Shown here piece by piece: positions 5,310 to 14,311 of a stretch of DNA of 28,065 bases; positions within the stretch are counted from its first letter, which is position 1, and every line of letters starts with the position of its first letter. The notes under the pieces were generated by a model, which saw only the letters and a program-made list of their open reading frames with translations, was not told the DNA's origin and searched no databases. The stretch lies in the IMG/VR virus record IMGVR_UViG_3300022821_000090, positions 1 to 28,065 of that record, one strand, 5' to 3'. Made by a program: the position numbers and the translations under genes. This stretch comes from a virus.

Positions 5310-5689
5310 CCGCGCCGGTTCCGGCAGCCGTGCGCGACCGCAACTTCTTTGCGGTTGCCCACGGCAACGCCCGTCGGGTCGTGCCGATCAAGCTTGAGCA
5401 GATACTCCGGTCGGAGTCATTTCAACGCGGCTACGCGGACCGTGCCGCGGGGCTACCGCGTTTGAAGATGGCGCAGGGGAACGGCGCCGAGCTCAACTAC
5501 GAGCGCGGCCGCATGTTCGCCGCTGCAATCATGGGGCACGGCCTGGCGCCGGCGCCCATCCTGGAAGATGGCGATTTGGTCGAGGGCGTGACGGATTTTG
5601 CTCTGGCCTTCGCCGACGACTGGGACCCGATCAACACGATTCTGGCCCAATGGCGGCCGGGTGAAGCACAGAACGGAGACGCCAAATGA
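5306..5689 (+). CDS. Small protein with RMF-like motif pattern, unknown function
   Basis: This 127-residue protein lies between portal and protease and is coupled to both, by a GTGA overlap at its start and an ATGA overlap at its end. I do not recognise a firm family. The central part reads SFQRGYADRAAGLPR and then YERGRMFAAA, a pattern resembling ribosome modulation factor-like proteins (RGY-x-x-x-x-x-G followed by YERGR-x-F). Several phages carry small proteins of this type among their head genes, but a role in ribosome binding is only a guess here. The rest is soluble, with no signal peptide or membrane segment. Confidence 0.75.
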   Translation: MTAPVPAAVRDRNFFAVAHGNARRVVPIKLEQILRSESFQRGYADRAAGLPRLKMAQGNGAELNYERGRMFAAAIMGHGLAPAPILEDGDLVEGVTDFALAFADDWDPINTILAQWRPGEAQNGDAK

Positions 5690-7059
5690 GCAAGATGCGC
5701 CGGATGCGCCGAGAGCTGCGGGCCAACCTTGGGAAGGTGGTCGGCTATCAGATTCGGGACGGCTACGGCGCGTCGATCGTGCCGGTCCTCGAGCGTGCCA
5801 TTCGCGGCGAGCACTTGGAGGACCCAGAGTTCTTTGGTGCACTAGCGGACGACTCGACGGCGATGGAGGAGCGCGACCGTGTTTCCCGCCGCTTTGCCGC
5901 GCCCATGATCATTCCGGCCGGCAAGGGCGGCAAGGCCACGGCGCTAGTATCGGTCCGCGGCATGGCGCTCTACGACTTCGAATATCAACCGTTTGCGTTT
6001 TCGACCTTGCTGCTCGCTCAGACTGTGACGGCCCTCGCGAACGACCCGGAGATCGGCACCATCATCCTGGATATCGACAGCCCGGGCGGTGTCGTGACGG
6101 GCACGCCGGAAGCCGGTGACGCCATCTTCGCGGCGCGCAAGAACGCGAACGTCGTGGCCCTGATCAATCCGCTTGCCGCCTCGGCGGCCTACTGGATCGC
6201 GTCGCAGGCGTCGGAAGTGGTCTGCGTGCCATCAGGCGACGTTGGCTCGATCGGCGTGTTCATGATGCACGTCGACTGCTCAGCGGCTTTTGACGCGGCA
6301 GGGATCAAGCCGACGTTCATCTTTGCTACCGACAGTCCCCACAAGGTCGAAGGCAACATGTTCGAGCCCCTCGGCGACGAGACTCGCGAGTACTTGCTGG
6401 GCGAGGTCGACGTGATCATGGCCCAATTTGTGAAGGCGGTAGCGCGAGGCCGCGGGGTGCCTGTGTCGAAGGTTCTGTCCGACTTTGGGAAGGGCCGCAC
6501 GCTGATGGCGCCGGCGGCCAAGGCTGCTGGCATGGTCGACCGTGTGGCGACGATCGGTGTGGCAATGGCGCGCTGGGGTATCTCGGCGCAGTCGCTCGAG
6601 GGGCGTCGTCGCGGCGAGGATCCGGCGCCTGGGCCGAACGCGGCGGGCTCATTTCTTCACAAGGCGCGCGCCTATGATGCGGCCAAGCCCATCACCCACG
6701 CCAAGGTTGGCGAGACGTCGACCGCAGGGCTCGTTGTCATCGATGAGGCCACGGGCGATGAGGTCACCTGGGTGACCGAGGTCAACACCGACGAGGGCTG
6801 GCTTGTGCGGCACCGCACCGACGAGGATGGGAACCCTCAGGTCTGCCATGGCGGCCCCATTTGCGCGCTATGTGAAAGCCAGCCGACGGGCGAGCACGTC
6901 GCTGCCGAGCGTCTTGATGGCCAGTTTCGCATCGAGCAACGAGACCCAATTGTTGAGGGTCAAGAGACGCTCGAGGTCGACGAGCTGGCATTCAAAAAGG
7001 ATGGCGCCAACCGTGCCGCGTCGGCACGCCGGCGCCTCGCGATCGAGCGCCACCGCTAG
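5686..7059 (+). CDS. Prohead protease, S49 (SppA-like) family, with C-terminal extension
   Basis: This 457-residue serine protease should cleave capsid and scaffold during head maturation. The ClpP/SppA-fold core shows DIDSPGGVVTG (about 128-138) and NPLAASAAYWIAS, with the likely nucleophile Ser166. GDVGSIGV follows. Lys220 in SPHKVEGN, 54 residues after the serine, matches the spacing of the Ser-Lys dyad in S49 enzymes. The core ends near residue 300. Residues about 335-430 form an extra domain (VTEVNTDEGWLVRHRTDEDG) with a Cys cluster at 387, 393 and 396 (CHGGPICALC). That resembles a small free-standing phage protein fused to the protease. No separate scaffold gene is visible, so the C-terminal region could act as scaffold. 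It starts in an ATGA overlap. Confidence 0.9.
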   Translation: MSKMRRMRRELRANLGKVVGYQIRDGYGASIVPVLERAIRGEHLEDPEFFGALADDSTAMEERDRVSRRFAAPMIIPAGKGGKATALVSVRGMALYDFEYQPFAFSTLLLAQTVTALANDPEIGTIILDIDSPGGVVTGTPEAGDAIFAARKNANVVALINPLAASAAYWIASQASEVVCVPSGDVGSIGVFMMHVDCSAAFDAAGIKPTFIFATDSPHKVEGNMFEPLGDETREYLLGEVDVIMAQFVKAVARGRGVPVSKVLSDFGKGRTLMAPAAKAAGMVDRVATIGVAMARWGISAQSLEGRRRGEDPAPGPNAAGSFLHKARAYDAAKPITHAKVGETSTAGLVVIDEATGDEVTWVTEVNTDEGWLVRHRTDEDGNPQVCHGGPICALCESQPTGEHVAAERLDGQFRIEQRDPIVEGQETLEVDELAFKKDGANRAASARRRLAIERHR

Positions 7060-7191
7060 ACCAACAAGTTTTCTGCAGTAGGGACTCCGTTGAGCTCCTG
7101 ACCTGCAGCACCAACGGCGGGCCCAACTTGGTCCGCCACCACAACCGCCAGCGCTGCGAAGCGCCGGCTTTCCCACAGATGGAGAGTCTCC
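7060..7191 (+). promoter_or_regulatory. Structured leader of the major capsid gene
   Basis: This is a 132-base gap with no gene. It holds three nested structures. An 8-bp hairpin (7116-7123 with 7130-7137, one G-T pair, loop CAACTT) has no T-run after it. A 5-bp hairpin (7151-7155 with 7160-7164) is closed by the GNRA loop GCGA. A near-palindrome covering the ribosome-binding site and start codon runs 7179-7193. No convincing sigma-70 promoter is visible. Confidence 0.6.
7151..7190 (+). promoter_or_regulatory. GNRA-hairpin translation leader, copy A (capsid)
   Basis: Stem GCGCT/AGCGC (7151-7155, 7160-7164) with tetraloop GCGA, then TTCCCACAGATGGAGA (7170-7185). The Shine-Dalgarno GGAG is at 7181-7184 and the ATG follows at 7192. 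The start codon is 27 bases after the stem. The 16-base segment with the SD is identical to that before the tail tube gene (16362-16377). Confidence 0.7.
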
Positions 7192-8694
7192 ATGAGAACG
7201 TTTTTTGCGCTTGCGGGGCTGTCAGCCCTCGTGGCGGTCGCGACCATCGGCCTGATGGTCCCGGACGCCTATGCGGCCTCGGCCGCGCTGCCCGACATCT
7301 TCAACCACATTGCCGGCGCTGACTACGCCACCGGCACCATCCTTGCCGGCCTGCTTGTTGGTCGCATCAAGGTGCTCCGCGACAAGAAGGCGGACCTCCT
7401 GAAAGAGGCCGATGCCCTCGCCGAAAAGGTCGACGCTGGCCATGCGTCGGCGGAAGAGCAGGACCGCCTCGAAGCCATCCTAGAGGACGACGGCGGAGAA
7501 CTGGCCAAGGCCAACAAGTCCATTGCGCGTGAGGAGCGCTTGATGGATGAGCGTCGGCAGCTGCCGGCGGCTGACCCTGAGAATGACGACACCGAGATCG
7601 AGGCGACCGATCGCACCAAAATTCCGGCGACTGTCAGGAAGCCGGACCGAGCGTTCAGCTCCTTCGGCGCCCAACTGCAGGCTATTGCCCACGCGGGCAT
7701 GGACAAGGGCGGTGACCGCGACGGTCGACTGGTCTGGCAGGCTGCTGGCACCGGTGCGAATGAGGCGGTTCCGTCCGAGGGCGGTTTCATCGTCCAGCAG
7801 GACTATTCGACCGAGCTGCTCGAGGGCATGCACGAGATGGGCGAGATTCTTGCCCGTGTCCGTCGCATCCCTATCACGATCGGCAACGGCATCAAGCTGC
7901 CGGCGATCGACGAGACCAGCCGCGCCAACGGCTCCCGCTTCGGCGGTGTCCAGGCGTATTGGGCGGATGAGGGTGACACCGTCACGGCTTCGAAGCCGAA
8001 GTTCCGCAAGCTGGAACTGTCGCTCGAGAAGCTGCTGGCGATCGGTTACGCGACCGAAGAGTTGCTGGCCGATGCCTCGGCGCTCGAGACGGTCATGCGC
8101 ACGGCCTTCATTGAAGAGCTGACGTTCAAGACCGAGGACGCCGTGATCAACGGTACTGGCTCCGGCCAGCCGCTCGGCATCCTGAATTCCGGCGCTTTGG
8201 TGAGTGTTGCCAAGGAATCGGGTCAGGCCGGGTCGACGGTTGTGACGGCCAACGTCCTGAACATGTGGGCGCGCACGCCTATCCGCTCCCGCAAGAACCT
8301 GGTCTGGGTGATCAATCAGGATGTCGAGAGGCAGCTCTACTCGCTGACTCTCGGCTCGGGCACGGCCGTCGTGTTGCTCTACACGCCTCCGGGCGCGAAC
8401 GGCAACAACACGCCGTATGGCTTGCTGCTCGGTCGACCGGTTATTCCCATCGAGTACGCAGCCACGCTCGGCACGGTTGGCGACGTGATCCTGTTCGACC
8501 CGATGTCGTACGTGATGATCGACAAGAACGGGATCCAGCAGGCGGCATCGATGCATGTCCGGTTCCTCTACGAGGAAATGACCTTCCGCTTCACCTATCG
8601 GACGGACGGTCAGCCGGTCTGGGACTCGGCGGTCACGCCGTACAAGGGCACCAACACGATCTCGCCTTACGTCGCGTTGGCGACGCGAGCCTAA
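7192..8694 (+). CDS. Major capsid protein, HK97 fold, with signal-peptide-like N-terminus
   Basis: This 500-residue protein is the shell subunit. Residues about 185-500 are a typical HK97-fold capsid core (SEGGFIVQQDYSTELLEG, then AYWADEGDTVTASKPKF, then GTGSGQPLGILNS). Residues about 61-135 are the helical, charged delta domain that the prohead protease normally removes. The unusual part is residues 1-60. MRTFFALAGLSALVAVA is followed by a DAYA-AS cleavage-like site and a second hydrophobic stretch (TGTILAGLLVG). Capsid proteins normally start at the delta domain. An in-frame GTG at 7372 (residue 61) would give the usual start but has no clear SD, whereas the ATG at 7192 has a strong one (GGAG, 7181-7184). 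It is followed by a terminator-like hairpin. Confidence 0.95.
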   Translation: MRTFFALAGLSALVAVATIGLMVPDAYAASAALPDIFNHIAGADYATGTILAGLLVGRIKVLRDKKADLLKEADALAEKVDAGHASAEEQDRLEAILEDDGGELAKANKSIAREERLMDERRQLPAADPENDDTEIEATDRTKIPATVRKPDRAFSSFGAQLQAIAHAGMDKGGDRDGRLVWQAAGTGANEAVPSEGGFIVQQDYSTELLEGMHEMGEILARVRRIPITIGNGIKLPAIDETSRANGSRFGGVQAYWADEGDTVTASKPKFRKLELSLEKLLAIGYATEELLADASALETVMRTAFIEELTFKTEDAVINGTGSGQPLGILNSGALVSVAKESGQAGSTVVTANVLNMWARTPIRSRKNLVWVINQDVERQLYSLTLGSGTAVVLLYTPPGANGNNTPYGLLLGRPVIPIEYAATLGTVGDVILFDPMSYVMIDKNGIQQAASMHVRFLYEEMTFRFTYRTDGQPVWDSAVTPYKGTNTISPYVALATRA

Positions 8695-9340: not shown

Positions 9341-9562
9341 ATGAAAGTTCGTCAGCTCGTCGGCCGCCTTGCCGGCCAGATCGTTGACATGCCTTACGCC
9401 GAGGCGACCTCCTGCGTTGGTTGCGGCACCGCCGCGTGGCCCGAGGACACCCCGCGCGTGAAGGGGCTCAATATTCCGACGCCCGCGCCGGTGGCAGGCG
9501 CGACACCGAAGCCGGCCGCCAAGAAGAAGGCGACACCGGTCAAGAAAGCCCGCGCCCGTTAA
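9341..9562 (+). CDS. Small basic-tailed protein, unknown function
   Basis: This 73-residue protein begins MKVRQLVGRLAGQIVDMPYAEA and contains a C-V-G-C pair near residue 26. It ends in a lysine-, alanine- and proline-rich tail (KPAAKKKATPVKKARAR) that could bind nucleic acid. The start is set by AAAGGGAG at 9324-9331; the frame is open further upstream but through non-coding hairpin sequence. The stop overlaps the next start as TAATG. I do not recognise the family. Phages often carry small proteins with such a basic tail next to the decoration gene, possibly a head component. Confidence 0.75.
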   Translation: MKVRQLVGRLAGQIVDMPYAEATSCVGCGTAAWPEDTPRVKGLNIPTPAPVAGATPKPAAKKKATPVKKARAR

Positions 9563-10206
9563 TGGCGCGGAAGCCCTGGTCGATCCCGGTCATGTGGCCG
9601 GGGGAAACCGTTGTGGTCCTGGGCGGAGGGCCGTCGCTGGATCTCAAGCAGATCCACACTGTTGCTCGGGCCCGGCTGGCAAACCGCTGCCGGGTCATCG
9701 CAGTAAACGATGCAGTCTTTCCAGCGTGGTGGGGCGATTGGCTCCATGGGTGCGACTTCAAGTGGTGGGATTGGCACAAGGAAACGGCACTCAAATTCCC
9801 GGGCATCCGGACCACCTGCACCGAGACAGTGCCGATCGCGTGGGCGCACTACCTGCAGGTCGCCAAGCCTAACTCGAAGACTGGTCGACGCACCGGCATG
9901 CCGAAGCGGCCCTACATGGTCGCTGGCGGTGGCAACGGCGGGTACCAGGCCATTCAGTGTGCCGTGAAGGCCGGTGGCGCGAAGGTTCTGCTCCTGGGCT
10001 TCGACATGGGATTCAGCCCTTCGGGCGAGTCTCATTTTTTTGGCGACCACCCCGACCGCATGCGATCCGACTACGTGGAGACCATGCTCCCCAATTTTCC
10101 TGGCCTCGCGAAGGTGCTCAACGAGCTCGGCGTCGAGGTCATCAACTGCTCGCCGCAGACACAGCTCGACGTGTTTCCGACGGCGCGCCTCGAGGACGTG
10201 ATTTGA
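9562..10206 (+). CDS. DUF115 / MptE-like (Maf-related) Rossmann-fold protein
   Basis: This 214-residue protein opens the sugar gene cluster. Residues 17-28 read VVVLGGGPSLDL, the nucleotide-binding loop typical of the DUF115/MAF_flag10 superfamily, followed by RVIAVNDAVFPAWWGDWLHGCD. Relatives include 6-hydroxymethylpterin diphosphokinase MptE and the flagellin-modifying Maf proteins, which attach nonulosonic acids to protein. Phage members are often given uninformative names. The sugar-transferase neighbours make a Maf-like glycosylation role more plausible than pterin chemistry, but this is inference. The ATG overlaps the previous stop (TAATG), and the stop overlaps the next TTG start. Confidence 0.8.
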   Translation: MARKPWSIPVMWPGETVVVLGGGPSLDLKQIHTVARARLANRCRVIAVNDAVFPAWWGDWLHGCDFKWWDWHKETALKFPGIRTTCTETVPIAWAHYLQVAKPNSKTGRRTGMPKRPYMVAGGGNGGYQAIQCAVKAGGAKVLLLGFDMGFSPSGESHFFGDHPDRMRSDYVETMLPNFPGLAKVLNELGVEVINCSPQTQLDVFPTARLEDVI

Positions 10207-10889
10207 TCCGTTTTGCCCACATCATCGACGACAAGAACACCGGCGACCTGATGAGCGGGCCGTACCGGTGGTTCGACTTTCCGGCGCACGAGGCGTTCAA
10301 CTACTCGGCGCCGGTTCCCGACGATGGCGCTCTGACCGTTTTCGGCGGCGGAACGATGGTGAACTGGCTCACCAACCAGCGGCCGGACGATTTACCGAGA
10401 GGCCCGAAGGTAGTTTGGGGTGCAGGTTCGAGCCGCCACGGCGAGGTCGATCCCTGGCCCGACCCGTCGGGCTTCGACCTGATCGGGACGCGGGAATGGA
10501 CGGCGGAACGCGAGGCGGCTGGACTGTGGGCACCATGCCCGTCGTGCATGAGCCCGCTGCTCGACCAGGACTATGAGATCACGCGCGCCAAGGTGGCGTT
10601 CGTCAACGCGAGCGACGGCATCAGGTCGCGCTACCCGGCCGTCTATGGCCTCGACGTTCCGATGATGGGCAACGACCGGCCCATGTCGGAGATCATCGCG
10701 TTCCTTGGTTCGGCCGAGACGGTGGTGACAAACAGCTACCACGGCCTGGCATGGTCCTCATGGCTTGGCAGGAATATCGAAGTGCACGGATACAGTTCGA
10801 AGTTTCACCGGTTCCCATACCTGATCCCGGTCGACGAGTGCCGGGCCGCGACGCGGCGGTTTTATGAGCGCGTGAGGGAGCTGGCATGA
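10203..10889 (+). CDS. Polysaccharide pyruvyltransferase-like protein
   Basis: This 228-residue protein resembles the polysaccharide pyruvyl transferase family (CsaB/WcaK-like), which adds ketal-linked pyruvate to sugars. Two signatures are visible. The N-terminal NTGDLMS (12-18) corresponds to the family's N-x-GD loop, and the C-terminal VVTNSYHGLAWSSWLGR (about 174-190) to its conserved S-x-HG segment. A CPSC pair lies near residue 115. The start is a TTG in a TTGA overlap with the previous gene; the frame is open upstream but inside that gene. The protein is shorter than bacterial members (about 300-400 residues), so the fold may be minimal and the donor uncertain. Confidence 0.8.
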   Translation: MIRFAHIIDDKNTGDLMSGPYRWFDFPAHEAFNYSAPVPDDGALTVFGGGTMVNWLTNQRPDDLPRGPKVVWGAGSSRHGEVDPWPDPSGFDLIGTREWTAEREAAGLWAPCPSCMSPLLDQDYEITRAKVAFVNASDGIRSRYPAVYGLDVPMMGNDRPMSEIIAFLGSAETVVTNSYHGLAWSSWLGRNIEVHGYSSKFHRFPYLIPVDECRAATRRFYERVRELA

Positions 10890-11626
10890 GCGGCCGCAGT
10901 CCCGGTCTGTCCGGCCTTGTCCGGCTTCGCGACGAAGAGGCGTGGTGCCGCCTGGCGCTCGAGTCCTTCGTTGATTGGTGCGACGAGCTGATCGTGGTGC
11001 TCAACACCTGCACTGATCGGACGCCGGAAATCGTGGGCAGCTTTGCAGCCCAACACCCGGACAAGGTCAAGGTGTTTGACTACCCGCACCGGATTCACGA
11101 AATGGGCCCCGGCCACGATCGCTGCCCGACAACGGACGAGCGCGCCTCCGCGGCGCTCTACAACTTCACGCAAGAGCGGTCGACGTTTGATCATGTGATC
11201 AAGCTGGACGGCGACATGGTGATGATGGACTGGGCCGGGGCTCGGGTACGCGAGCGCATGGCCGAGGGTCACCATCGGATCAAGCTCTACGGCACTGACC
11301 TCGTGGGCGACGACCTACGGCACATCGGCTGCCACCCGCTCTGCCCGACGAACGGCGTCTATCAGGCCTGGGGCACCCGCTACGAGCAGGGCCCGGTGAC
11401 GCAATCGCTCAAGGGCGCGCCGGCACCGACTGCCGAGATTCGCGACGCGTTTTTGCACTTCAAGTGGGCGCGCAAGTCCTTCGCTGCGGCGACGGCTCAG
11501 TGGCCGCCCGACTGGGATCAGATTCCGCACTTTCAGAAGATCGCTGAGCGCCGATTCCCGGCTGCTCGTTACAACGGCGAATATCCGGCGTCAGTGGCCG
11601 CGCTGCTTAGTCAGGAGGCCGCATGA
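10886..11626 (+). CDS. Glycosyltransferase, family 2-like
   Basis: This 246-residue GT-A type protein starts with GLSGLVRLRDEEAWCRLALESF, the donor-binding beginning of GT2 enzymes, followed by CDELIVVLNTCTDRTPEIV. It has a metal/nucleotide-binding DGDM in IKLDGDMVMMDW near residue 105. The C-terminal half (FLHFKWARKSFAAATAQWPPDW) matches what I recall of phage GT2-like proteins. It is probably soluble and uses a nucleotide sugar; the acceptor is unknown. It begins in an ATGA overlap and ends in an ATGA overlap, so it is co-translated with its neighbours. Confidence 0.85.
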   Translation: MSGRSPGLSGLVRLRDEEAWCRLALESFVDWCDELIVVLNTCTDRTPEIVGSFAAQHPDKVKVFDYPHRIHEMGPGHDRCPTTDERASAALYNFTQERSTFDHVIKLDGDMVMMDWAGARVRERMAEGHHRIKLYGTDLVGDDLRHIGCHPLCPTNGVYQAWGTRYEQGPVTQSLKGAPAPTAEIRDAFLHFKWARKSFAAATAQWPPDWDQIPHFQKIAERRFPAARYNGEYPASVAALLSQEAA

Positions 11627-12183
11627 TTCAACCGCATGTCGTCGCGAACTTAGAGCGTTGGTCGGAGTTCTACGGCGCCTCGATGCTGATGCTCGGCGCC
11701 ACAGGGAGCAATGTGCCGGAGTATCCAACGGCGCGCGATTTCTTCGGACGCTGGGTCGGCAGCTATGCCGATCTCGACCTGGACCCGGCAGCGAAAATCC
11801 AAGAGGACCTAAACCGCGACCTCGCTTCGCTTTCCCAAGGCTACGACAGCGTGTTCAACCTCGGGACGATCGAGCACGTTTGGAACCAACACAACGCCTG
11901 GGCCAATGCGCTCCGGGCGGTTGCAGTCGGCGGCCACTTTCTGAGCCACGGCCCTGTGAACGGTTGGATAAATCACGGCCTATTCATGGCCAATCCCGGC
12001 GCCGTGCGGGCGTTCGTCGCCAAGAACGGCTTCGAAGTGGTCGACGAGTTCAACACGAAGTGGCGCCAGCAGGGCGAAGTGTTGTGGCTTGCCGCACGCA
12101 AGGTCCGGCACATCGAGGACCTGTCGGACTATGAGCCTGCTTGGCAGATCTACGAGCAGGGCAACAAAAAGGCAGTCCGATAA
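11623..12183 (+). CDS. SAM-dependent methyltransferase-like protein (cluster)
   Basis: This 186-residue protein has the second half of a class I methyltransferase pattern. DLDLDP and the acidic region that follows (about 50-60) could hold the SAM ribose, and YDSVFNLGTIEHVWNQ (about 76-91) is the motif around strand 4. A post-motif (ALRAVAVGGHFLSHGPVNGW) then follows. A canonical glycine-rich motif I is weak (SMLMLGATGSNVPEY, about 20-34), so activity is less certain than for the second methyltransferase at 12894. It probably modifies a sugar or protein made by the cluster. ATGA overlap with the gene before it. Confidence 0.75.
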   Translation: MIQPHVVANLERWSEFYGASMLMLGATGSNVPEYPTARDFFGRWVGSYADLDLDPAAKIQEDLNRDLASLSQGYDSVFNLGTIEHVWNQHNAWANALRAVAVGGHFLSHGPVNGWINHGLFMANPGAVRAFVAKNGFEVVDEFNTKWRQQGEVLWLAARKVRHIEDLSDYEPAWQIYEQGNKKAVR

Positions 12184-12918
12184 ATGCCGGCGCATTCCGC
12201 GGTCGGTGGTGGTGCTATGACCCTGTCCGTCGTCTGCTTTCTTTGGCGCGATCCCGACTTCCGACACGCCAATCTCTACGAGTACGGCCCTCGTTACGTC
12301 AACGTCCTGCGCAACATGCTGGAGCGCCACCTGCCGATCGAGCACCAGTTGTGTTGCGTGACCGACATTCCGGATGGGATTGATGATCGCGTTCGCATCG
12401 TCCCGATGCCGAAGGACGTTCGAGCGTTCGAGCGCTACTACCGCAAGCTCTACGCGTATCACCCGGACGCCGCGAATATCTTCGGCGCTGACCGGCTGTT
12501 GCTGATCGATCTTGACACAGTGATTGTCCGGGACATGAGCGTGCTGGGCCTCGATCGTTCTGACCCTTTTATCGCTTGGTCGACGCACCCCGGAACCAAG
12601 GCGCGCTTCAATACCTCGCTTGCCCTGATGGACGCTGGGGCCTTTCCGGAAATATGGGAGCGATTTGTCCCAGTGGAGAGCGCCAAGGAGCTCGAGAGCT
12701 TGGGGTACGAGGACGGCGACCAGGACTGGGTGTCACACGTCATCGGCAACAAGGGCGCCACCTGGGCGCGCCGTGGCGATGGCGTTGAGCCCTTCTATCA
12801 GAGCCGGTTCGAAGGCCTGCCACAGAGTGCAAGCGTGGTTTTCTTCAATGGGCGTAGGTCGCCTGCAATGCGGGAATTGCAGCAGCAGCACCAGTGGATT
12901 GCGGACAATTGGAAATAG
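12184..12918 (+). CDS. Glycosyltransferase, GT-A fold (GT8-like)
   Basis: This 244-residue protein contains LLLIDLDTVIVRDMS around residues 105-118. Its D-L-D is the metal-binding DxD motif of retaining GT-A enzymes such as GT8. RFNTSLALMDAG and EDGDQDWVSHVIG correspond to the acceptor-side motifs (an N-T/S-G-like segment and DQD) seen in that group. The annotated ATG follows the previous stop directly. A second ATG at 12217 (MTLSVVCFLW) begins the recognisable fold and may be the true start, because the first 11 residues are low in complexity. Donor and acceptor are unknown. Confidence 0.82.
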   Translation: MPAHSAVGGGAMTLSVVCFLWRDPDFRHANLYEYGPRYVNVLRNMLERHLPIEHQLCCVTDIPDGIDDRVRIVPMPKDVRAFERYYRKLYAYHPDAANIFGADRLLLIDLDTVIVRDMSVLGLDRSDPFIAWSTHPGTKARFNTSLALMDAGAFPEIWERFVPVESAKELESLGYEDGDQDWVSHVIGNKGATWARRGDGVEPFYQSRFEGLPQSASVVFFNGRRSPAMRELQQQHQWIADNWK

Positions 12919-13514
12919 CGCCCTGGCCCGACGCTCGGCTCAGTCCGGACGGTCGGATCAAGGATGTCCGCGGCGACCACGTGGGCCGCTACAGGTGGGC
13001 TACGGAGCGTTTGCGGGGCGTCGGGGCACTGGTCATTGATGCCGGCTGTAACTGCGGCTACGGGGCCTCGATTCTGGCAGCAGCGGGCCTCGAGGTCCTG
13101 GCGGTCGACAACTGGGTCGAGGGTCTGGATTGGGGCCAGGCGCAGTACGACGCCGACACCATCACTTGGCGCGAAATGGACTTGGACCGGCCGTGCGACT
13201 TCTCTCCGGCCGGCGCCGTGGTGGCGTTCGAAATCATCGAGCACCTGCCGGACCCTCGGCACTTGTTACGGGCCGCTCGGGCAGCGGCACCGCGGTTGCT
13301 GGCGAGCGTGCCGAACGAGGCGGTCTGGCCGCACGAACCGCGTCTGTTTCCGGTGCACCAGCGCCACTACCGCCGCGCCGAACTCTTGGCGTTGCTGACG
13401 GAAACGGGCTGGAATCCGGTTGGCTGGTACGGGCAACGGGGCGGGAGTTCGCCTGTCGAGTCCGCCGTCAACGGCCGGACGCTCGTGGTCGAATGCGTAA
13501 GGGCTGAGGAATGA
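12894..13514 (+). CDS. Class I SAM-dependent methyltransferase (cluster)
   Basis: This protein of up to 206 residues shows a clear SAM-binding motif I (VIDAGCNCGYG, 47-57), an acidic residue after strand 2 (VLAVDNW), and motif IV region FEIIEHLPDPRHLL (about 112-125). The final part, FPVHQRHYRRAELLALLTETGW, is typical of Methyltransf_11/23 proteins that modify small molecules or sugars. The GTG start gives a 25-base overlap with the preceding glycosyltransferase; a TTG at 12909 is an alternative and neither has a strong SD. It ends in an ATGA overlap with the next gene. Confidence 0.82.
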   Translation: MDCGQLEIAPWPDARLSPDGRIKDVRGDHVGRYRWATERLRGVGALVIDAGCNCGYGASILAAAGLEVLAVDNWVEGLDWGQAQYDADTITWREMDLDRPCDFSPAGAVVAFEIIEHLPDPRHLLRAARAAAPRLLASVPNEAVWPHEPRLFPVHQRHYRRAELLALLTETGWNPVGWYGQRGGSSPVESAVNGRTLVVECVRAEE

Positions 13515-14311
13515 GAGCTGCAATTCATGTCAACGGCGCAGCGCATCAGAGCGCCAATGCGCGGGCCATGCGCGCCGGCCTCGAGCGCCACGGCGTTGAG
13601 GTTGTGCATGCTGCGGTCGACGTGCCGGTCCTGTGTGACTTTGCCGTGATCTGGGGATGGCGCCAGCCGGCCGTGTCGGCGAACGGACCGACCCTGGTCA
13701 TGGAGCGCGGCTATATCGGCGACCTCGAGAACCGCCGGCGCTGGACGTCGCTGGGTTGGGACGGGCTCAACGGTCGCGCTCGTCGACCAAGCCCCGATGC
13801 TGGCGAGCGCTGGGACGCGCACTTCGAAACGATGATGCAGGCGCCTCGCGACGGTGGCGCCTACGTTTTGCTGGCCGGCCAATGCCGGGGCGATCGCGCC
13901 GTCGCGGGAACCAACATTGCTTTGTGGGCGCGCGATACGGCCCGCCAGTTGCAGGAGCTGACCGACTTGCCGATCAGGTTTCGCCCGCATCCGCAGGAGC
14001 TCTCGCCATGGGACGTTCATGGCGTTGCAACGTCGGATCGCACGCTTGCCGAGGATCTGGCGGAGGCGGCGTTTGTCGTGACGTTCAATAGCAACGCCGG
14101 TGTCGACGCTGCTCTTGCCGGCGTGCCGGTGGTCGCCGTCGACGAGGGCGCCATGGCCTGGCCTATCGCCGCACATGAGCTGACCGCCACCCCTGTGCTG
14201 CCGGGGCGGCGTACGTGGGCTACGCAGCTGGCGTTCTGCCAGTGGACGGCCCAAGAGATCGAAACCGGAGAGGCGTGGGAGGCGTTGCGCGAATGTATGA
14301 CGGCCGATTGA
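13511..14311 (+). CDS. Capsule-polysaccharide-type glycosyltransferase-like protein (GT-B)
   Basis: This 266-residue protein closes the sugar cluster. PIRFRPHPQE (about 154-163) and, downstream, FVVTFNSNAGVDAALAGVPVVAVDEGAM (in two blocks, about 188-214) match the donor-binding end of GT-B proteins of capsule export/synthesis type. There, an R-x-HP motif precedes an S-N-x-G-V-[DE]-A-L-x-x-G-x-P-V segment. The N-terminal half is shorter than in full-length enzymes. It may transfer a sugar or act as a truncated relative. It begins in an ATGA overlap and overlaps the head-tail connector gene by 19 bases, so the sugar genes and the structural operon are one translational unit. Confidence 0.75.
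   Translation: MRAAIHVNGAAHQSANARAMRAGLERHGVEVVHAAVDVPVLCDFAVIWGWRQPAVSANGPTLVMERGYIGDLENRRRWTSLGWDGLNGRARRPSPDAGERWDAHFETMMQAPRDGGAYVLLAGQCRGDRAVAGTNIALWARDTARQLQELTDLPIRFRPHPQELSPWDVHGVATSDRTLAEDLAEAAFVVTFNSNAGVDAALAGVPVVAVDEGAMAWPIAAHELTATPVLPGRRTWATQLAFCQWTAQEIETGEAWEALRECMTAD

Follow-up and report, generated by a model that had tools for sequence, protein, structure and literature searches.

Why would the major capsid protein (MCP) of a tailed phage begin like a secreted protein? The question is raised by a 28,065-base viral record from IMG/VR, the whole of which was analysed and is called the window here. The N-terminus of its MCP (ORF 7192-8694, plus strand, 500 amino acids) reads MRTFFALAGLSALVAVATIGLMVPDAYA/ASAALPDIFNHIAGADYATGTILAGLLVGRIKVLRDKK, where the slash marks the predicted cut. 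It was found that the protein is a known family member with an unusual added part, namely an ordinary HK97-fold MCP (TIGR01554, PF05065) with 56 extra in-frame residues at its N-terminus. TIGR01554 matched residues 62-485, from model position 4, with 190 bits (cut-off 27.5), and PF05065 matched residues 197-485 with 144 bits (cut-off 24.2, E=6e-42). The best Foldseek matches of the AlphaFold2 model (pLDDT 83) were the capsid proteins of GTA, Mycofy1, T5, and HK97. The gene order is terminase, portal, and S49 head maturation protease, followed by the MCP. The features of the locus are as follows.

5686..7059, plus strand: gene of the S49 (SppA-like) head maturation protease (PF01343, E=6e-26; phrog_53, E=2e-60; SppA_dom, E=5e-31, the last being below that model's own cut-off)
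7181..7184, plus strand: Shine-Dalgarno GGAG of the upstream ATG at 7192 (sequence)
7192..7359, plus strand: N-terminal extension of the MCP, residues 1-56 (without counterpart in about 180 other homologues; TIGR01554 begins at residue 62)
7192..7275, plus strand: signal-peptide-like part, residues 1-28, with R2, a hydrophobic region at about 5-23, and the c-region VPDAYA (scorer, approximate dG)
7276..7329, plus strand: linker, residues 29-46, with no K/R and two Asp (sequence)
7330..7437, plus strand: predicted continuous helix 47-82, whose start (47-56) is weakly hydrophobic and runs into the delta-domain helix (AlphaFold2)
7360..7641, plus strand: delta (scaffold-like) domain, residues about 57-150, with a putative end (alignments, predicted helices)
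7780..8646, plus strand: HK97-fold capsid domain, residues 197-485 (PF05065, Foldseek)

AlphaFold2 predicted helices over residues 47-123, with high confidence from about residue 57, and the S49 protease gene adjoins. Cleavage of the delta domain may occur near residue 150, and the S49 protease is a candidate for the enzyme that removes the extension together with the delta domain. HK97 gp5 resembles the window MCP in having the HK97 fold, a fused N-terminal helical scaffold domain, and a head maturation protease gene upstream. In contrast, gp5 lacks a signal-like extension: its N-terminus already belongs to the scaffold helices, residues 2-66 forming the towers (PMC10275583).

Is the extension really made? 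The sequence-only reading had placed the start of translation at the upstream ATG, and this was borne out by the same arrangement in three independent relatives (L003, L004, and L225) and by the lack of a usable internal start. In all four extended MCP genes, GGAG lies 7-10 nucleotides ahead of the first ATG. The next in-frame start candidates after ATG 7192 have no Shine-Dalgarno sequence, the GTG at 7372 having only GGT, and no internal start with a clear Shine-Dalgarno sequence at a common place was found among the four genes. Internal initiation, whether at GTG 7372 or at ATGs in the relatives, is thus ruled out by the Shine-Dalgarno sequences and the lack of conservation, and an assembly artefact is ruled out by the same extension on independent contigs. 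The codon-position GC of the extension is like that of the body in the window and L004, and less clearly so in L003 and L225. Neither misannotation nor misassembly accounts for the extension; a wrong start codon or a chimeric assembly, with the true protein beginning at residue 57-61, is very improbable, as the place where close homologues begin speaks for it but GTG 7372 is all that the window offers there and the contigs showing the extension are separate.

Does the extension look like a signal peptide? N-termini were scored with a crude home-made scorer (not SignalP), calibrated on E. coli proteins. The window MCP scored 10.95 and the three extended relatives 11.5-12.3. Among the E. coli references, secreted proteins (n=15) had a median of 11.1, cytoplasmic proteins (n=46) a maximum of 9.7, and membrane proteins (n=15) a maximum of 10.6; the 180 other MCP homologues reached at most 10.4. 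The scores of all four extensions fall in the range of E. coli secreted proteins. By the same scorer, the four share the Sec type I features, that is, a charged n-region, a hydrophobic region, and small residues at -3/-1. In the window, the c-region VPDAYA carries the A-x-A, and the predicted cut is after A-Y-A, at residue 28. Thus, the signal-peptide-like N-terminus with a cleavage-like site that had been read from the window stood up to scoring and recurs in the three relatives. The N-terminal membrane anchors TolA and TolR score nearly as high as the four extensions. Therefore, the scorer distinguishes the extension from the starts of cytoplasmic proteins, but hardly from an N-terminal membrane anchor that stays uncleaved, and the score favours a membrane signal more than cleavage.

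The N-terminal sequences, with the predicted cuts, are given below.

Window: MRTFFALAGLSALVAVATIGLMVPDAYA/ASAALPDIFNHIAGADYATGTILAGLLV
L003: MNTKKLFAWGFAFAALCLVAVVGEPAMA/AQAIHLDAHSYFSEAAGAGMALAGL
L004: MKKITLIAFGFALLAAAAMTLGWVGEAAAAVPLLGDANAFSLQDSLMSGLAVMGL (cut somewhere within GEAAAA; the exact site is ambiguous, and the scorer chose an earlier site)
L225: MRNNKTIFAVLGSIAIAAIFLVVSGGDATA/AYAGTNFALTDFSGPAGASMALIGL

All four have a K/R within positions 2-5 followed by a hydrophobic region of 15-20 residues, Gly/Pro and an acidic residue ahead of a small-residue A-x-A/A, and then a K/R-free linker, after which comes the K/R-rich start of the delta domain (RIKVLRDKK in the window). The approximate dG of residues 5-23 is -0.95 in the window, and that of the corresponding region ranges from -0.95 to -2.06 over the four MCPs. 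The K/R-free run is 55 residues in the window and 49-55 among the four (p < 0.001 when each N-terminus is shuffled at constant composition), although equally long runs are also found in MCP bodies (longest run: median 44, 95% 65). A second hydrophobic stretch had also been claimed. A weakly hydrophobic segment is indeed present, but it is predicted to form the start of helix 47-82 and is not a convincing membrane helix; the approximate dG of +1.2 kcal/mol in the window (+2.1 to +2.7 in the relatives) does not support a clear second transmembrane helix. The AlphaFold2 model of the L225 protein has a helix at 3-23, a break, and a helix at 46-80. Since residues 1-48 of the window model are of low confidence, no claim is made on their fold. 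A Pfam search with the extension gave no meaningful match and hence no sign of homology to a known domain, and the PorA hit (E 0.19) is probably a signal-peptide coincidence. As to the suggestion that the extension is an acquired host segment, there was no support either way.

Is this common among HK97-type MCPs? I analysed a set of 188 non-redundant MCP homologues with a complete 5′ end from viral and genome collections. A signal-like hydrophobic start together with a Shine-Dalgarno sequence was found only in the window, L003, L004, and L225 (the window is identical to the record L002, L003 also occurs as L155, and L004 also occurs as L012). The MCPs of the three relatives are 61-71% identical and lie on separate contigs. 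The hydrophobic start of L142, far upstream, is probably a wrong start. The extension is absent from the about 180 other homologues, and it is as unusual for this family as had been supposed. Close homologues begin exactly at residue 57 of the window MCP (MRIKVLRDKK in L227 and MRIKVLRDRK in L017 for GRIKVLRDKK in the window), so that the delta domain, which had been set to begin at residue 61, is better taken from the family start at 57. The sequence-only reading had named beforehand, as speaking against it, an alignment in which all homologues start at residue 61. This nearly applies, yet the objection does not hold, as the extension also occurs in three other phages. Among 385 genomes from the class to which a Rhizobium relative belongs, no extended copy was found (E 1e-80; only that Rhizobium matched).

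In a tree of 41 MCPs, the extended proteins fall into more than one clade. The sister of L225 is L017, without the extension, and L005, a close relative with a 69% identical MCP that also lacks the extension, is placed among the window, L003, and L004. Because strongly supported branches force them, there were at least two changes in the presence of the extension; its history is either a single gain followed by losses or a series of gains. The common c-region pattern and the same fusion point would favour a single origin. As judged from the four N-termini, the signal-peptide features persist despite the diverged sequence.

A further element lies between the protease and MCP genes, and in all 14 related phages that have it, it is found close ahead of the MCP gene.

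7074-7107, plus strand: 34-nt hairpin (covariation, 14 phages)
Same hairpin in relatives: L003 3734-3767; L004 3806-3839; L005 3894-3927; L014 2890-2923
L016 1864-1897; L017 2878-2911; L024 2858-2891; L154 5278-5311
L158 9243-9276 (minus strand); L225 9098-9131; L227 8818-8851
L229 8888-8921; L243 5058-5091 (minus strand)

It consists of two stems, outer and inner, with a TAG/TGAY internal loop between them, a single bulged base in the inner stem, and a loop of the YGTN type. Over the 14 phages, in an alignment fitted to the RNA model, 95.5% of the pair cells pair, and the covariation is 0.64 (0.205 when shuffled); a MAFFT alignment of the first nine sequences gave 0.641 (0.191 when shuffled). 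Rfam has no match for this leader hairpin. The RNA model also gave two weak matches in the same genome set; neither lies near an MCP, and both seem to be chance hits. Since the hairpin is found with and without the MCP extension, it is independent of the extension; as a candidate leader RNA, it may control capsid expression. In L003 (3799-3820) and L005 (3967-3984), it is followed, ahead of the MCP start, by a hairpin with a T-run that resembles an intrinsic terminator; none was found on that strand in the window by the same scan. With such a downstream hairpin, the element in L003 and L005 could be part of an attenuator or antiterminator. Further downstream in the window (9421-14311), a block of small genes that are not virion-structure-like separates the head genes from the head-tail connection genes; one of them has an MptE-like PF01973 match below the cut-off. 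L003 and L225 have a comparable block in the same place.

What might the extension do? The anatomy of a signal sequence ahead of a scaffold domain makes membrane targeting of the nascent MCP the simplest reading. Inner-membrane targeting is plausible and is the reading favoured here; a functional Sec/SRP-type signal fused ahead of the delta domain, for membrane targeting and subsequent removal, is given about an even chance. Guided by the signal, MCP chains would reach the cytoplasmic face of the inner membrane while still nascent, become concentrated there, and start prohead assembly. With a K/R-free linker and a K/R-rich delta start, the chain would tend to form a hairpin that keeps the capsid domain in the cytoplasm. 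The signal would be clipped by host signal peptidase at A-x-A/A or by the phage S49 protease, and the remainder of the extension would be lost together with the delta domain as the head matures, so that the mature capsid would be an ordinary one. Filamentous phage pVIII has a comparable layout, that is, a cleavable signal peptide, an acidic segment, a hydrophobic stretch, and a K/R-rich segment left in the cytoplasm. The window MCP N-terminus resembles it in layout, and homology is not claimed; unlike pVIII with its transmembrane helix (PMC3185693), the window MCP has a weak hydrophobic stretch followed by a 440-residue HK97-fold protein.

Some points speak against targeting. The second hydrophobic stretch is too weak for a clear stop-transfer, and a working signal without one would export the capsid protein. 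The close relative L005 and L017, the sister of L225, manage without the extension. Moreover, in HK97 prohead I the N-terminal coiled-coil towers are inside the shell and point inward (PMC10275583), so that permanent membrane anchoring is hard to square with a closed shell; anchored subunits in a closed prohead would need membrane inside it. The signal may be gone before closure, hydrophobic tips may gather inside, or membrane may be transiently enclosed. It seems unlikely that the HK97-type capsid protein itself is inserted in the inner membrane by its signal sequence, with the towers facing the membrane and the shell forming on or briefly around it until freed by proteolysis.

Alternatively, the extension may be a hydrophobic scaffold tip that is never in the membrane. 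Such tips would pack with each other inside the prohead at the ends of the coiled-coil towers, help capsomers and the portal nucleate, and then be cut off in maturation. This is doubtful but deserves to be kept in view. HK97 towers are inward-pointing N-terminal coiled coils (PMC10275583), and the continuous helix 47-82 of the window model joins the hydrophobic stretch to the delta domain. However, the charged n-region, the helix-breaking Gly/Pro before A-x-A/A, and the K/R-free linker, all kept in the four MCPs, are left unexplained. A strongly hydrophobic N-terminus should also be caught by SRP/SecA anyway, which counts against such a tip.

It is improbable that the extension is an ordinary signal peptide with no role in assembly, taking some MCP into or across the membrane for reasons of a different kind, such as Sec loading or superinfection effects. 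The signal-peptide scores fit this idea, and the weak second stretch would not reliably halt translocation; on the other hand, no other late protein normally matches the MCP in abundance, its export should lower the yield, and no partner genes were recognised. A neutral or near-neutral fusion has a similarly low probability. Since the N-terminal region would be discarded in maturation, extra sequence ahead of it would be tolerated, and the patchy distribution on the MCP tree, with at least two gains or losses, agrees with this. Nevertheless, the signal-peptide features are retained in four copies that have otherwise diverged, each fused at the same family start.

Few viral proteins have been studied as much as the HK97-type capsid proteins, which are regarded as cytoplasmic; no report of one with a signal peptide was found in the open-access literature searched. 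Membrane-built proheads have a precedent in T4 and SPN3US, whose heads begin on the inner membrane and whose proheads are released with proteolysis (PMC9026906, PMC7411985). This is a comparison of how they work only, and T4 differs in being anchored by its portal (gp20 with YidC) instead of by a signal at the N-terminus of the capsid protein. The natural pairs with and without the extension, L225/L017 and window/L005, permit direct swap tests. These results suggest that in a small group of tailed phages, whose MCP has an export-signal-like front end, head building may start at the cell membrane. If this is true, a conserved signal on the MCP would mean that the shell protein itself directs head assembly to the membrane, a task for which T4 uses the portal.
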